A stretch of DNA of 64,000 bases from a bacterium (GTDB lineage: Bacteria > CAIWAD01). A program made the position numbers and the translations under genes. A model generated the notes under the pieces. The model searched no databases. It was not told the DNA's origin and was given only the letters and a program-made list of their open reading frames with translations. The stretch lies in NCBI GenBank assembly GCA_030685015.1, contig JAUXWS010000067.1:77397-141396 (forward strand), in the 5' to 3' direction. Positions 3,159 through 11,023 of this stretch are shown here, piece after piece. The number at the start of each line of letters is the position of its first letter. Within the stretch, counting starts at the first letter, position 1.

Positions 3159-5207
3159 ATGACACGCCGAATCCAAGCTCTCGGAGCAGGGCTTTGCCTG
3201 CTTCTGGCCCCCCCCCTTGGAGCGCTTCCCGCCGGCCGCCTGGTCGGGTGGGGCGCCATGACCCAACCCATCGTGGAGCCAGGCACCCGCTACACGGCCG
3301 TGACCGCCGGTCCAGTGGGTGGCATGGCCCTGGACCGGCAGGGGCGTCCCGTCGGCTGGGGACACTTGCCGCCGGATTCCCCGCCCACCGAGCCGCTGGT
3401 GGCCGTTTCGGCGGGCGGTCGGCATGTTCTGGGCCTGACCGCCGCAGGCCGCGTGGTGGCCTGGGGAGACGACGGTCAGGGGCAGTGCCAGGCGCCCTCC
3501 AGTTCTGATTTCGTGGCCGTGGCGGCGGGCGGATTCCACAGCCTGGCCCTGCGCGGCGACGGCAGCGTGGCGGCCTGGGGCAGCAACCTGGACATGTATG
3601 GGGAGCCTTCCGGCCAGTGTGACGTGCCGGCACCAAACATGGATTTCGTCGCCATCGCGGCCGGGGCGGTGCACAGCCTGGGGCTGAAGCGGGACGGCAG
3701 CATTGTCGCCTGGGGGGCGAACACGGGTGATTTCTACTACCCCATCGATGATCCCGGCCAGTGCCTGGTTCCGGAGCCCAACGAGGGTTTCGTGGCCGTG
3801 GCCGCCGGCCACTTCCACAGCATGGGGCTGAAACAGGACGGCTCCATTGTCACCTGGGGATACTTCGACAGCACGGTCCATCCCGTGCCTGCGCCCAACA
3901 GCGGTTTTGTTGGCATCGCCGGCGGCCTTTTCCTCAACTTGGGGCTGCGGGCGGACGGCAGCCTGGTGCAGTGGGACTGGGGTGGGATGCCACGTCCAGT
4001 GCCGGACCCGGGGCCGGGCTTCACGGCCATCGCCGCCGGCGAGAACCATGCCCTGGCCCTGCGCTCCGATGGAACCCTGGTCGCCTGGGGGGACAATACC
4101 TTGGGGCAGTCCATGATTCCCGATCCGGCCCCGTCCCTGGTCGCCGTGTCCGCCGGGGGATTGAACGCCCTGGCCCTGGGCGAGGATGGCATCCTGCGGG
4201 GTTGGGGCCAGGCCATGGATTGGGTCGGCGGTCGTGTGCCCATGCCGCTGCCCCAACCCAACCAGCAGATCCGCGCTCTGGCCGCCGGTCCCACCCACAA
4301 TCTGGCCGTGGGCTTGGACGGGGTGGTGCGCTGCGGCGGCTGGGACTTTTTCGGCGAATGCAGCGTGCCGCCGCCCAACCAGGGCTATCTCGAGGTGGCG
4401 GCCGGCTGGCACTTCAGCCTTGGCCTGAGGGAGGGCGGCGTTGTTGAGGCCTGGGGCAACGACGATGAGGGGCAGTGCCAGGTGCCCGCCGCTGCCCAGA
4501 ACGCCGTGGCCCTGGCGGCTGGCTGGGCCCACGGCCTGGCCCTGCGCGGCGACGGCTCGATTGTCGCCTGGGGCGATGACGGCAACGGGCAGGGCCGGCC
4601 GCCGGAGGACAACAGGGGCTTCACGGCCATCGCGGCGGGGGCGTGGCACAACCTGGCGCTGCGCGATGATGGCTCGATCACGGCCTGGGGCGCCAGCCAT
4701 GCCGGCCAGTGCGCCGTGCCTGTACCCAATGAAGGGTTCGTGGCGGTGGCGGCCGGGGAGGACCACAGCGTCGGGTTGAAGGCGGACGGACGGGTGGTGG
4801 CCTGGGGGGCCAACGACCGTGGCCAATGTGCGGTGCCGGATCCCAGCGGCGGATACATGGCGATTGCGGCGGGCTGGGGCTTCACCGTGGCGCTGCGGGC
4901 GTCGGAGGCGGTGCCGCTGGCCCCGGTGACGGACCTGCGTGCCAGCTGGACGGTCGGCGGTCTGCGGCTGGACTGGTCGGCGCCGGCCACGGATGTCAAT
5001 GGTGCGGCGCCGGTGGTGGTTGAAGGCTACGAATTGCACGCCTCCAGCAGCCCCTGGTTCACGCCGCAGGCAGCGACACGGCTGGTCGTGCTGGCGGAGC
5101 CCGGTTGTTGGCTTCCGGCCGGCGCCTCGGGGCCGCCGGCGCAGTTTCTGCGGGTGGTCGCCCTTGGCCGCGGTCCCTGGCTGTCCCGCGCCGCCCAAGC
5201 TGAATGA
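3159..5207 (+). CDS. Secreted RCC1-repeat beta-propeller protein
   Basis: A 682-residue protein with an N-terminal signal peptide (LCLLLAPPLGALPA) and about 14 tandem RCC1-type repeats of 38-50 residues. The repeats have the pattern FVAVAAG..HSLALR.DGS.VAWG...GQC.VP. Fourteen repeats would fit two seven-bladed propellers. The last 90 or so residues (VTDLRASWTVGGLRLDWSAP) resemble a fibronectin type III-like domain. RCC1 propellers mostly mediate protein binding, so an extracellular binding role is inferred; no catalytic residues are evident. The start ATG has a GAGG ribosome-binding site 9 bases upstream. No T9SS sorting domain is seen at the C-terminus. Confidence 0.85.
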   Translation: MTRRIQALGAGLCLLLAPPLGALPAGRLVGWGAMTQPIVEPGTRYTAVTAGPVGGMALDRQGRPVGWGHLPPDSPPTEPLVAVSAGGRHVLGLTAAGRVVAWGDDGQGQCQAPSSSDFVAVAAGGFHSLALRGDGSVAAWGSNLDMYGEPSGQCDVPAPNMDFVAIAAGAVHSLGLKRDGSIVAWGANTGDFYYPIDDPGQCLVPEPNEGFVAVAAGHFHSMGLKQDGSIVTWGYFDSTVHPVPAPNSGFVGIAGGLFLNLGLRADGSLVQWDWGGMPRPVPDPGPGFTAIAAGENHALALRSDGTLVAWGDNTLGQSMIPDPAPSLVAVSAGGLNALALGEDGILRGWGQAMDWVGGRVPMPLPQPNQQIRALAAGPTHNLAVGLDGVVRCGGWDFFGECSVPPPNQGYLEVAAGWHFSLGLREGGVVEAWGNDDEGQCQVPAAAQNAVALAAGWAHGLALRGDGSIVAWGDDGNGQGRPPEDNRGFTAIAAGAWHNLALRDDGSITAWGASHAGQCAVPVPNEGFVAVAAGEDHSVGLKADGRVVAWGANDRGQCAVPDPSGGYMAIAAGWGFTVALRASEAVPLAPVTDLRASWTVGGLRLDWSAPATDVNGAAPVVVEGYELHASSSPWFTPQAATRLVVLAEPGCWLPAGASGPPAQFLRVVALGRGPWLSRAAQAE

Positions 5208-7598: not shown

Positions 7599-7810
7599 AT
7601 GGAAAGGACATACCAGCATCTTTCGCCTGAAGAACGCACCGTCATTTCCTGAAGCGTTCAGAGGGCAAAGGTCCTCGGGCCATTGGCCGAGTCCTGCACC
7701 GCGATCCCGGCACGATCAGCCGGGAGCTGAAGGGGAACACCTGGCTGACAAGCCCTATGACGCCAGGCGTGCGGGGCTGCGCGCATCGCCGGGACTTTGA
7801 TGCTGACATG
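7599..7810 (+). pseudogene. IS30-family transposase remnant, frameshifted and truncated
   Basis: Three reading frames together give the N-terminus of an IS30-type transposase. The first frame reads MERTYQHLSPEERTVIS from ATG 7599 and then stops. A second frame reads AIGRVLHRDPGTISRELKGN (helix-turn-helix) and continues to about 7810. A third frame reads PYDARRAGLRA. These match the usual IS30 order of LxxEER start, SxIA..L.R.PSTISREL.RN, then YxAxxA. At least two frameshifts are needed and the catalytic DDE domain is absent, so it is dead. It lies 48 bases upstream of the DGR target gene and marks foreign DNA at the left border. Confidence 0.72.
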
Positions 7811-7857: not shown

Positions 7858-8778
7858 ATGCGGATGACCATGCGCACGGTGTTGCCAACTGCCCTGCTGG
7901 GCGCCCTGCTCGCGGGATGCGGAGGGGGATCCTCCGAAACGAGCGCTCCGATCCTTGGCTTTGCTTCGAGCGAGCGCGGACCCCTGCCGGGCATGCGCTT
8001 CGTCAAGATCAAAGCGGGATCCTTCATGATGGGCAGCAGCAATGAAGAGATCGCCTACTGGCAGGCCCATCCCCCGGTGGAGGAGCTTGCATTCTTAAAG
8101 GTGACCCCTGCGGATTGGCGTACATGGGTGGCGGTCGAGGGACCACAGCATGAAGTGCGCGTCAGCACCTTCCAGCTGATGACGACGGAGGTGACGCAGG
8201 CCCAGTGGCAGGCCTTGATGGGCGACAATCCATCCTTCAACAAGGGTGGCGACTTGCCGGTGGAGCAGGTCAGTTGGCAGGATGTGCAGGGCTTTTTGGC
8301 TGAGATCAACCGTCGTGATTCGTCCTTTCACTATCGCCTGCCCACGGAGGCGGAGTGGGAGTACGCTTGCCGGGCGGGGTCGACCGGCTCCTGGAGCTGC
8401 GGCAATGACGAGGAGTCGCTGAAGGACATTGCCTGGTATTGGAGAACCAGTGGTGATGTGGTGCTGGGCGGCAACTGGGACGTAGGCCGCATCCGGTCCA
8501 ACAACCCCCGGACCCATCCCGTGGGGGCCAAGTCGCCCAATGCCTGGGGTCTGTACGACATGCACGGCAATGTCTGGGAGTGGTGCGCGGATTGGTACGG
8601 GCCCTACGCGGCGGAGGCGCAGCGGGATCCCACCGGCCCTTACAGCGGCTCCCGTCGCGTCTATCGGGGCGGCGACGCCGCCAGTGGCGCGGCGGGTCTG
8701 CGCGCAGCCTACCGCGACTTCCGGGGTGCCGAGCGACCGCGCCGGTGGCCTGGGTTTCCGTCTCTGCAGGACCGTTAA
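7858..8778 (+). CDS. DGR target: FGE/SUMF1-domain lipoprotein with 3' variable repeat (frameshifted end)
   Basis: A 306-residue lipoprotein. The signal peptide ends in LLGALLAGC, so Cys21 would be lipidated. An FGE-sulfatase (formylglycine-generating-enzyme-like) domain follows, with GMRFVKIKAGSFMMGS near residue 45, YRLPTEAEWEYACRAG near 160 and LYDMHGNVWEWCADWYG near 232. In DGRs this C-type-lectin-related fold carries the variable ligand-binding face. Residues from about 263 on are encoded by the variable repeat (8645-8776). Family members normally end LGFRLC..., but here the frame shifts after RDFRG and ends GFPSLQDR at 8778. Removing one G from the run at 8723-8726 restores GLGFRLCRTVNP and a stop at 8785. 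ATG 7858 begins the signal peptide. Confidence 0.9.
   Translation: MRMTMRTVLPTALLGALLAGCGGGSSETSAPILGFASSERGPLPGMRFVKIKAGSFMMGSSNEEIAYWQAHPPVEELAFLKVTPADWRTWVAVEGPQHEVRVSTFQLMTTEVTQAQWQALMGDNPSFNKGGDLPVEQVSWQDVQGFLAEINRRDSSFHYRLPTEAEWEYACRAGSTGSWSCGNDEESLKDIAWYWRTSGDVVLGGNWDVGRIRSNNPRTHPVGAKSPNAWGLYDMHGNVWEWCADWYGPYAAEAQRDPTGPYSGSRRVYRGGDAASGAAGLRAAYRDFRGAERPRRWPGFPSLQDR
8645..8776 (+). repeat. DGR variable repeat (VR)
   Basis: A 132-base segment at the 3' end of the FGE-domain gene, nearly identical in layout to the template repeat at 10751-10881. Aligned base by base, 18 substitutions fall opposite template adenines (to G, T or C). Three internal ones fall at other bases, and one lies in the 3' border after a shared 21-base stretch ending TCTCTGCAG. 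That stretch is the likely initiation-of-mutagenic-homing site. One extra G lies in the GGGG at 8723-8726. Confidence 0.93.
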
Positions 8779-8824
8779 CCCTTAGCTCTCTTACCCTCTT
8801 ACCCTTTGCTGCGATGGGCGGGGT

Positions 8825-8882
8825 GGTCGACCGGGCGCCGCCCGCCCGAGCGAAGCCGGGGCGAGGTGGCGCCCGGTCGACC
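8825..8882. repeat. 15-bp inverted repeat downstream of the VR
   Basis: GGTCGACCGGGCGCC at 8825-8839 is perfectly complementary to GGCGCCCGGTCGACC at 8868-8882, with 28 bases between. It starts 49 bases after the VR. In the Bordetella phage DGR a hairpin or cruciform just beyond the target repeat promotes retrohoming, so this may be the equivalent. It could also simply terminate transcription of the lipoprotein gene; no T-run follows. Confidence 0.7.
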
Positions 8883-8922
8883 GCGCGGGTGGACAGGATC
8901 GAGCTTTTCTTAGGAGTGACGT

Positions 8923-9438
8923 GTGACCGTGCGCATCATCACGATTCCCTTCGACCGGGAACGAGGGATTTTTCCAGAGGAGGAGTTGAATCGCTTCTGC
9001 GCGGCTCGCCAGGTGCTGCACAAACGGCCGGAGTTTTTCTCGCACCAGGGGCGTGCCTGGTGGACGGTGTGGTTGGAGGTCGAGGAGGTCGAACCGGGTC
9101 AATCGATTCCGGAAGGGCTGAATGCGGCCCAAGCAGGTATTTTGAAACGGTTGCGCGAGTGGCGCATGCAGGTCGCGGACAAGGCGGGTCTGCCCGCCTA
9201 CGTGGTGTTGACCAACCGGGAGCTTGAAGAGGTGGCCCGACGAAAACCCGGCACCCTGGAGGCGCTACGCGGCATCCATGGCTTGGGTCAGAAGAAGCTG
9301 GCCCGTTACGGCAAGGCCATCCTGGCCCTGGTGTCGGAGACGGGTCCGCCCACGCTCGAGGTCACGCAGGCAATGGACCGTGAACCGCCTGCTGAAGCTG
9401 AGCCACCCGCTGCCACGGAGACGGCTGAGCATGCATGA
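8923..9438 (+). CDS. HRDC-domain protein, DGR accessory
   Basis: A 171-residue soluble protein. Residues about 70-140 (ILKRLREWRMQVADKAGLPA, YVVLTNRELEEVARRKPGTL, IHGLGQKKLARYGKAILALV) form an HRDC domain, the helical nucleic-acid-binding module of RecQ helicases and RNase D. The N-terminal 65 residues resemble a small mixed domain of unknown type, and the C-terminal 25 residues are Pro/Ala/Glu-rich. HRDC proteins are known DGR accessory genes, probably contacting template RNA or target DNA. GTG 8923 has a TAGGAG site 6 bases upstream. The gene overlaps the Avd start by 8 bases, so translation is probably coupled. Confidence 0.85.
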   Translation: MTVRIITIPFDRERGIFPEEELNRFCAARQVLHKRPEFFSHQGRAWWTVWLEVEEVEPGQSIPEGLNAAQAGILKRLREWRMQVADKAGLPAYVVLTNRELEEVARRKPGTLEALRGIHGLGQKKLARYGKAILALVSETGPPTLEVTQAMDREPPAEAEPPAATETAEHA

Positions 9439-9772
9439 GGCCGCGCCGCTTCTGGAGCATTGGAATCGCTTCCTCGACTGGCTGCTGGATCGCCTGGAGC
9501 GCTTTCCCCGGGATGCGCGCTTCACCATCAGCCAGCGCATGGCCAACTTGGCCCTGGACGCCTTGGAGGCCATCATCGAGGCGGCCTACACCAAGGACCG
9601 TGTGCCCATTCTGCGCCGCCTGAATTTGATTCTGGAGAAGCTTCGCGTGATGGTGCGGATCAGCCATCGACGCCGCTACCTCAGCACGGACCAGTACGAA
9701 CATGCTGCCGAGAACCTGCTCACCATTGGCCGCATGGTCGGCGGTTGGTTGCGACATGCTGCCGCAGGGTGA
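9431..9772 (+). CDS. avd: Avd-like DGR accessory protein (four-helix bundle)
   Basis: A 113-residue, helix-rich, basic protein matching the bAvd/S23-like family: HWNRFLDWLLDRLERFPRDA, FTISQRMANLALDALEAIIE, RLNLILEKLRVMVRISHRRR and YEHAAENLLTIGRMVGGWLR give four amphipathic helices. In the Bordetella phage system Avd forms a pentamer that binds the reverse transcriptase and the template RNA and is needed for mutagenic cDNA synthesis. The length is close to the usual 110-130 residues. Start ATG 9431 overlaps the HRDC gene, and the RT gene starts inside its 3' end, so the three genes are tightly coupled. The MHEAAP start was chosen over an open frame that extends upstream because it fits the family and the overlap. 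Confidence 0.88.
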   Translation: MHEAAPLLEHWNRFLDWLLDRLERFPRDARFTISQRMANLALDALEAIIEAAYTKDRVPILRRLNLILEKLRVMVRISHRRRYLSTDQYEHAAENLLTIGRMVGGWLRHAAAG

Positions 9773-10832
9773 TTTGTTTAACCAGCTCGCGTCCTTCGCC
9801 TGGCTGCTGGAGGCATGGCGTCGAGTGCGGCGGGGAGCCGGCAAGACACGGGTATCCGTGGAATTCGAGTTCAATTTGGAGCAGGAGCTGCTCGACCTGC
9901 GCGATGAGCTGCGCAGCGGCACATGGAAGCCCGCAGGGTATCGTTACTTCACGATCAAGGAACCAAAGGAACGCTTGATCGCCGCGGCGCCCTTGCGCGA
10001 CCGCATCGTACACCACGCCGTGGTCGGGCTGCTGGAACCGATTTATGAGGAGCGTTTCATCGAAGACTCCTACGCGACGCGCAAGGGAAAGGGTATGCAC
10101 CTGGCAGTGTGCCGCGCCCAGGAGTTGGTGAGGCGGCATCGCTGGCATTTGAAGGTCGACATTCGCCAGTATTTCCCCAGCGTTGATCTGGATCGTCTCG
10201 GCCTGCAACTGCGCCAAGACATTGGTTCGGATCCCATCATCGATGTCCTGGAGCGCATCCTGCGCTGCGATCCGAGTCGACCCGGCCTGCCCATCGGCAA
10301 CCTGACCAGCCAGTTTCTCGCCAACGTCTACCTGAACGGGTTTGATCACTGGGTGCAGGATGAACTGCGTCCGGCAGGCTATGTGCGCTACATGGACGAC
10401 ATGGTCTTCTTTCATGACGATCGGTCCGCGCTGAAGAAAATGTTGCCGGAGGCGAGCGGGTGGTTGACCATGCAGCGCGGTCTGCGCTTGAAGGAATCGG
10501 CCACTCGAATCAACCAGCGGAACCACGGCCTGGGCTTCCTGGGTGTCAGGATCTTCCCGGAGTTGATCCGGGTGCGGAGAGAGAGCTTGCGTCGGTGTCT
10601 GCAGCGATTGTCGCGACGCGAGTGGCAATATCAATCAGGGTGGCTGTCCGAGGACGAGCTTGCCGTCTGTGCGCAGAGCGCCGTGGCGCACCTCGCACAC
10701 TGGAACAGCCATGCATTACGACGATCGATCTTCAAGGGCGATCATCATCGGCGGCTCCCATCGCGTCAATCGGGGCGGCGACTACACCAATGCCGCGGCG
10801 AATCTGCGCGCAGCCAACCGCGACAACAATGA
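9756..10832 (+). CDS. DGR reverse transcriptase
   Basis: A 358-residue reverse transcriptase. Motif A is LKVDIRQYFPSVD (about residue 130), the catalytic motif is YVRYMDDMVFF (YMDD at about 211-214), and the preceding motif reads LPIGNLTSQFLANVYL (about 178). The SQ in place of the QGxxxSP of group II introns and retroviruses marks the DGR clade. The enzyme copies template RNA with errors at adenines. ATG 9756 lies inside the avd 3' end. The last 27 codons (from 10751) lie inside the template repeat in another frame, so the C-terminal tail LPSRQSGRRLHQCRGESARS is read from template DNA and may be dispensable. Confidence 0.95.
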   Translation: MLPQGDLFNQLASFAWLLEAWRRVRRGAGKTRVSVEFEFNLEQELLDLRDELRSGTWKPAGYRYFTIKEPKERLIAAAPLRDRIVHHAVVGLLEPIYEERFIEDSYATRKGKGMHLAVCRAQELVRRHRWHLKVDIRQYFPSVDLDRLGLQLRQDIGSDPIIDVLERILRCDPSRPGLPIGNLTSQFLANVYLNGFDHWVQDELRPAGYVRYMDDMVFFHDDRSALKKMLPEASGWLTMQRGLRLKESATRINQRNHGLGFLGVRIFPELIRVRRESLRRCLQRLSRREWQYQSGWLSEDELAVCAQSAVAHLAHWNSHALRRSIFKGDHHRRLPSRQSGRRLHQCRGESARSQPRQQ

Positions 10833-10881
10833 GCCGAGCAACCGCGACAATGACCTGGGTTTCCGTCTCTGCAGCACCGTT
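10751..10881 (+). repeat. DGR template repeat (TR)
   Basis: A 131-base template matching the VR at 8645-8776. Read in the target-gene frame it encodes SHRVNRGGDYTNAAANLRAA followed by NRDNNEPSNRDNDLGFRLC. This contains eight Asn codons (AAC/AAT), the codon type that gives the widest amino-acid choice under adenine mutagenesis. It begins inside the RT gene and continues 49 bases past the RT stop. The 3' border differs from the VR (GCAGC versus GCAGG, GTTG versus GTTA), as expected for IMH* versus IMH. Confidence 0.94.
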
Positions 10882-10892
10882 GACGGGCTGAT

Positions 10893-10916
10893 TCGCAACC
10901 TCCATGGATGTTGCGA
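10893..10916 (+). other. Small hairpin just 3' of the TR
   Basis: TCGCAAC (10893-10899) pairs with GTTGCGA (10910-10916) around a 10-base loop. It sits 12 bases after the TR, where the Bordetella-type DGR RNA has a structured spacer that primes reverse transcription. Functional assignment is inference from position. Confidence 0.4.
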
Positions 10917-10990
10917 CCGTGTGGCTTGACCACGTTCCACCAGCGGTCCCGATGATCGTCCCGCCCTGCTGACATAGGCAGGCAAAGAGA

Positions 10991-11023
10991 GGCACCGGCT
11001 CTCAACATCAGAGGGTCGGTGCC
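10991..11023. terminator. Hairpin at the end of the DGR transcript
   Basis: GGCACCG (10991-10997) pairs with CGGTGCC (11017-11023), with an inner CTC/GAG pairing and a short T-containing tail (GATTTCC). It lies between the DGR and the convergent purB stop at 11091, so it could end transcripts from either side. Confidence 0.5.

Follow-up and report, generated by a model that had tools for sequence, protein, structure and literature searches.

The 3.2-kb cassette on the + strand of the window (the whole stretch of DNA analysed, 64 kb in length) is, judged from its sequence, a genuine diversity-generating retroelement (DGR), a well-known kind of system. Its gene order is target-HRDC-avd-RT-TR, and the assignment to this class is supported by the adenine-specific TR/VR differences, a reverse transcriptase (RT) with the SQ motif that falls in the DGR clade, Avd, an IMH-type difference and a hairpin. 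The proposed explanation as a whole, a chromosomal DGR of an HRDC-bearing subgroup that would diversify an FGE lipoprotein, is given a probability of about 95%. The first-pass annotation had called the DGR complete, and the target with VR, the HRDC gene, avd, a DGR-type RT and the TR were each confirmed; the word needs qualifying because the target VR is frameshifted in this assembly. As it had also suggested, the cassette is apparently new in this lineage, its kind being already known. Absent from that annotation were the extra base in the VR, the overlap of TR and RT, the non-adenine substitutions, a second cassette and a third VR family. An Rfam search of the 64-kb window gave no match.

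The TR/VR pair, the target frame and the hairpin

The target gene (7858..8778, + strand) encodes an FGE-sulfatase / C-type-lectin-like domain (Pfam PF03781, E 1.4e-42) and is a lipoprotein by the lipobox LLAGC read from its ORF. The VR (8645..8780) lies at the 3' end of the gene, and the FGE-sulfatase domain reaches the VR end. In the 134-nt alignment with the TR (about 10751..10885), 23 substitutions were found, 18 of them at the 29 template adenines (hypergeometric p = 7.9e-11), and the count and coordinates given in the first-pass annotation proved correct. The five non-adenine substitutions (T10783G, C10793G, T10830G, C10875G and G10882A), three in the VR body and two near the VR 3' end, exceed those of most panel pairs. 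The IMH-type VR 3' end, CTGGGTTTCCGTCTCTGCAGGACCGTT (8750..8776), differs from its IMH* counterpart at the TR 3' end (10855..10881) by the change of TR C10875 to VR G8770, which converts Ser to Arg; a similar S/N/K to R change at the VR 3' end was seen in many panel TR/VR pairs.

One extra VR base was placed at 8719, its exact position being ambiguous within 8719-8727 (TTCCGGGGT vs TR AACAATGA). The TR frame reads ...NDLGFRLCST, the assembled VR ...RWPGFPSLQDR* and the other frame of the VR GFRLCRTVNP*. The assembled target ends in WPGFPSLQDR and not in GFRLCRTVNP, with the last conserved FGE strand lost. The TR (TR1) and the TR of the second cassette (TR2) align without gaps, indicating that the indel arose on the VR side, and fresh homing would restore the target protein because the TR keeps the frame. 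A frameshifted VR is uncommon, not unique: about 4 of roughly 70 panel TR/VR pairs, judged by eye from translations, have one (the second VR of L027 at 8692-8814, L036, L056 and L058).

A hairpin or cruciform lies 3' of the VR (8823..8885), with perfect outer arms of 15 bp (8825-8839/8868-8882), the tip GC[GAA]GC and a stability z of -4.66 vs shuffles. Its 12-nt core, CCCGAGCGAAGC, has only 3 copies in the 3.6-Mb genome, each within a DGR cassette or next to a DGR target; the other copies, on contig C88 between VR and HRDC and on contig C86 upstream of HRDC, differ in their outer arms, and the target on contig C52 is without the core. A hairpin with a GRNA tetraloop like those of phage DGRs was not seen here, the tip of the strong hairpin being a GAA triloop, and G(R)NA-loop hairpins beat shuffles in part of the RT clade only. 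A stem-structure requirement has been shown for the BPP-1 DGR (PMC3240598), which the hairpin 3' of the VR would fit by analogy, though its tip is GAA rather than GRNA.

Further VR genes, the locus in relatives and the origin of the frameshift

A second cassette, HRDC2-avd2-RT2-TR2, was found on contig C86 (L004, 8930-10979, - strand), where the contig end truncates its target. RT2 is 61% identical to the window RT, and its ORF runs right through TR2, which lies inside it. Two dispersed FGE-target VRs match TR2. The one at C88:30580-30704 (L006/L015) has 26/27 substitutions at adenine and a frame-shifting 4-nt gap; the one at C52:3218-3344 (L007/L016) is in frame. On these alignments the second cassette is more adenine-pure than the window cassette. 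A truncated HRDC copy lies 3' of the C88 VR and has 394 nt in common with C86 at 95% identity.

A third VR family comprises five FGE genes (L136, L141, L146, L151 and L153; one on C41, two on C90 and two on C28). Upstream of the VR these genes are mostly only 27-35% identical, the C41/C90 trio reaching 63-74%. Their last 40-odd codons have a common skeleton, in which 13/21 variable codons carry an invariant third C; such NNC codons would be the mark expected of AAC templates. Neither a template for this family nor a matching RT was found in the assembly. L146 has an in-frame TGA inside its VR, and 3/8 of the VR genes found in the genome have a frameshift or stop within the VR. A single genome, from a lineage with few sampled members (5 genomes examined for the phylum), thus carries two DGRs and eight VR-bearing genes.

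At the same place, a congener (G001) has a cytochrome gene, an FGE lipoprotein, an ATPase and purB, and at this locus it is without HRDC, avd, RT and TR. Its FGE lipoprotein is 46% identical to the target up to the VR, and the VR-equivalent of this ortholog matches the TRs no better than other FGE genes do, so the ortholog may or may not once have served as a DGR target. Searches of four further genomes from the phylum, two congeners among them, found neither Avd nor a DGR RT at E 1e-30. Gain in this species and loss in the relatives would fit these comparisons alike. A prophage or plasmid origin was rejected: the relatives found in phages, plasmids and IMG/VR show only about 25-42% identity, and the genes nearby are chromosomal ones with housekeeping roles (e.g. 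purB). Just upstream of the target (window 7601-7790) lies a broken, transposase-like remnant, IS30-like by inspection, in which a helix-turn-helix was recognised (HTH_38, E 1e-8), and window 3159-5207 encodes, on the same strand, an RCC1-repeat protein with a signal-peptide-like start.

That the frameshift stems from misassembly of a hypervariable region, the real target being intact, is a serious possibility that falls a little short of even odds. The genome is a draft of 105 contigs, assembly is difficult where the VR population is mixed, and the C88 VR in the same genome likewise has a frame-breaking gap; however, the VR is otherwise clean and stays close to the TR, and similar indels occur in other assemblies. 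RT slippage that lengthens or shortens AAC repeats by multiples of three has been discussed for DGRs (PMC12875486), and the 1-nt VR insertion here goes beyond such changes.

The cassette may be resting or decaying, because its target is frameshifted and non-adenine substitutions are more numerous than in most panel pairs. A recently silenced DGR, with its machinery intact in sequence, homing stopped and the VR (possibly also the TR) gathering ordinary mutations, is a possibility that we hold tentatively and place under even odds. It would account for the frameshift together with the three non-adenine changes in the VR body, for the lower adenine content of TR1 (29 A over 134 columns vs 38 A over 129 in TR2) and for the complete absence of the cassette from congeners, but the RT, Avd and HRDC ORFs are open with intact motifs, and the panel pairs with frameshifted VRs show that such a break also occurs elsewhere. 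Because the template keeps the frame, frame-breaking VR alleles could also be a regular product of homing that reversibly switches surface lipoproteins off, which we consider very unlikely. The frameshifted VRs raise the question of how often homing yields null targets.

Reverse transcriptase and accessory proteins

The RT (9756..10832) carries the motifs IGNLTSQ (SQ motif) and YMDD. Its best PDB match was 8ub7_A (E 2.4e-44), which we take to be the RT of the BPP-1 DGR, and group II intron RTs matched at about 1e-18 or weaker. In a tree of 67 RTs, a sample drawn by similarity to this RT that does not cover all DGRs, the enzyme was placed among DGR RTs and split 100/100 from five group II RTs, in agreement with the DGR type assigned in the first-pass annotation; a position beyond the DGR clade, which that annotation had named as grounds for rejection, was not observed. 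Its sister was RT2, and both belong to a 25-row clade (100/99) that takes in all the HRDC-bearing cassettes given a place in the tree. HRDC was not detected in two clade members: L034 is cut by a contig start, and in L033 none was found. Group II, retron and DRT identities were ruled out by profile cut-offs, PDB scores and the tree. That the RT belongs to a group II intron or a defence system and stands beside a chance repeat is so improbable that the idea can be set aside: group II and DRT models do give secondary matches, but the NCBIfam matches are far below their cut-offs (group II 135 bits vs 300), and the SQ motif, Avd, the adenine-specific repeat and the RT tree argue for a DGR.

The neighbouring HRDC, avd and RT ORFs share overlaps of a few bases. 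The TR overlaps the RT end by 82 nt, with the RT stop falling within the TR; for most of the clade members in which a TR/VR pair is present, the TR start lies 4-47 nt past the RT stop. The avd gene (accessory variability determinant, 9431..9772) was identified by NCBIfam DivGenRetAVD NF033474 at 101.6 bits vs a curated cut-off of 80, with further matches to PF22296 and phrog_3206.

The HRDC accessory protein (8923..9438) consists of an N-terminal beta-alpha-beta-beta domain (residues 1-57) and an HRDC domain (residues 70-137; PF00570, E 4.8e-22). In a structure model with pLDDT 85, the HRDC domain resembles the HRDC domain of E. coli RecQ (1wud, Z 14.3). The N-terminal domain (window 8923-9093) is conserved throughout 20 aligned HRDC proteins and matches no Pfam family, and a PDB fold search, with the domain modelled as part of the whole protein, returned weak, generic alpha/beta matches only. 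The HRDC gene was present in 21 panel loci, with avd found alongside in 19. Because a single RT clade contains every HRDC-bearing cassette in the tree, HRDC and avd appear to go stably together in one RT lineage within this sample. This supports a stable association of HRDC with one RT clade and makes the role of HRDC testable.

Proposed mechanism and comparison with known DGRs

By analogy with known DGRs, the RT with Avd would reverse-transcribe the TR transcript, misincorporating at template adenines, and the cDNA would replace the VR at the 3' end of the FGE lipoprotein gene, with guidance from the IMH and the adjacent downstream hairpin. HRDC probably helps to open or anneal DNA, and the diversified product is probably a surface-exposed ligand-binding face.

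The cassette resembles the BPP-1 DGR (mtd-avd-TR-brt) in its RT, Avd, adenine-specific TR/VR pair, IMH and downstream hairpin. It differs in being chromosomal, in the TR lying 3' of the RT and overlapping it, in the extra HRDC gene, in the FGE lipoprotein target and in the long hairpin with a GAA tip. An HRDC accessory gene overlapping its neighbour and dispersed targets are also features of the Treponema denticola DGR (PMC4891356), where HRDC sits between the TR and the RT, overlapping the latter, whereas the order here is target-HRDC-avd-RT-TR with avd also present. The overlap of the TR with the end of the RT ORF is a recorded layout, structural group 3 of DiGReF, in a paper with no mention of HRDC (PMC3521204). 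The order HRDC-avd-RT-TR is common to the cassettes of Go_SlDig_bin_48 (L017), Saprospiraceae (L018, L022) and Magnetococcales (L024), whose RTs are 43-49% identical to the window RT and belong to the same clade; their TRs start about 12-23 nt past the RT stop, whereas the TR here starts inside the RT ORF.
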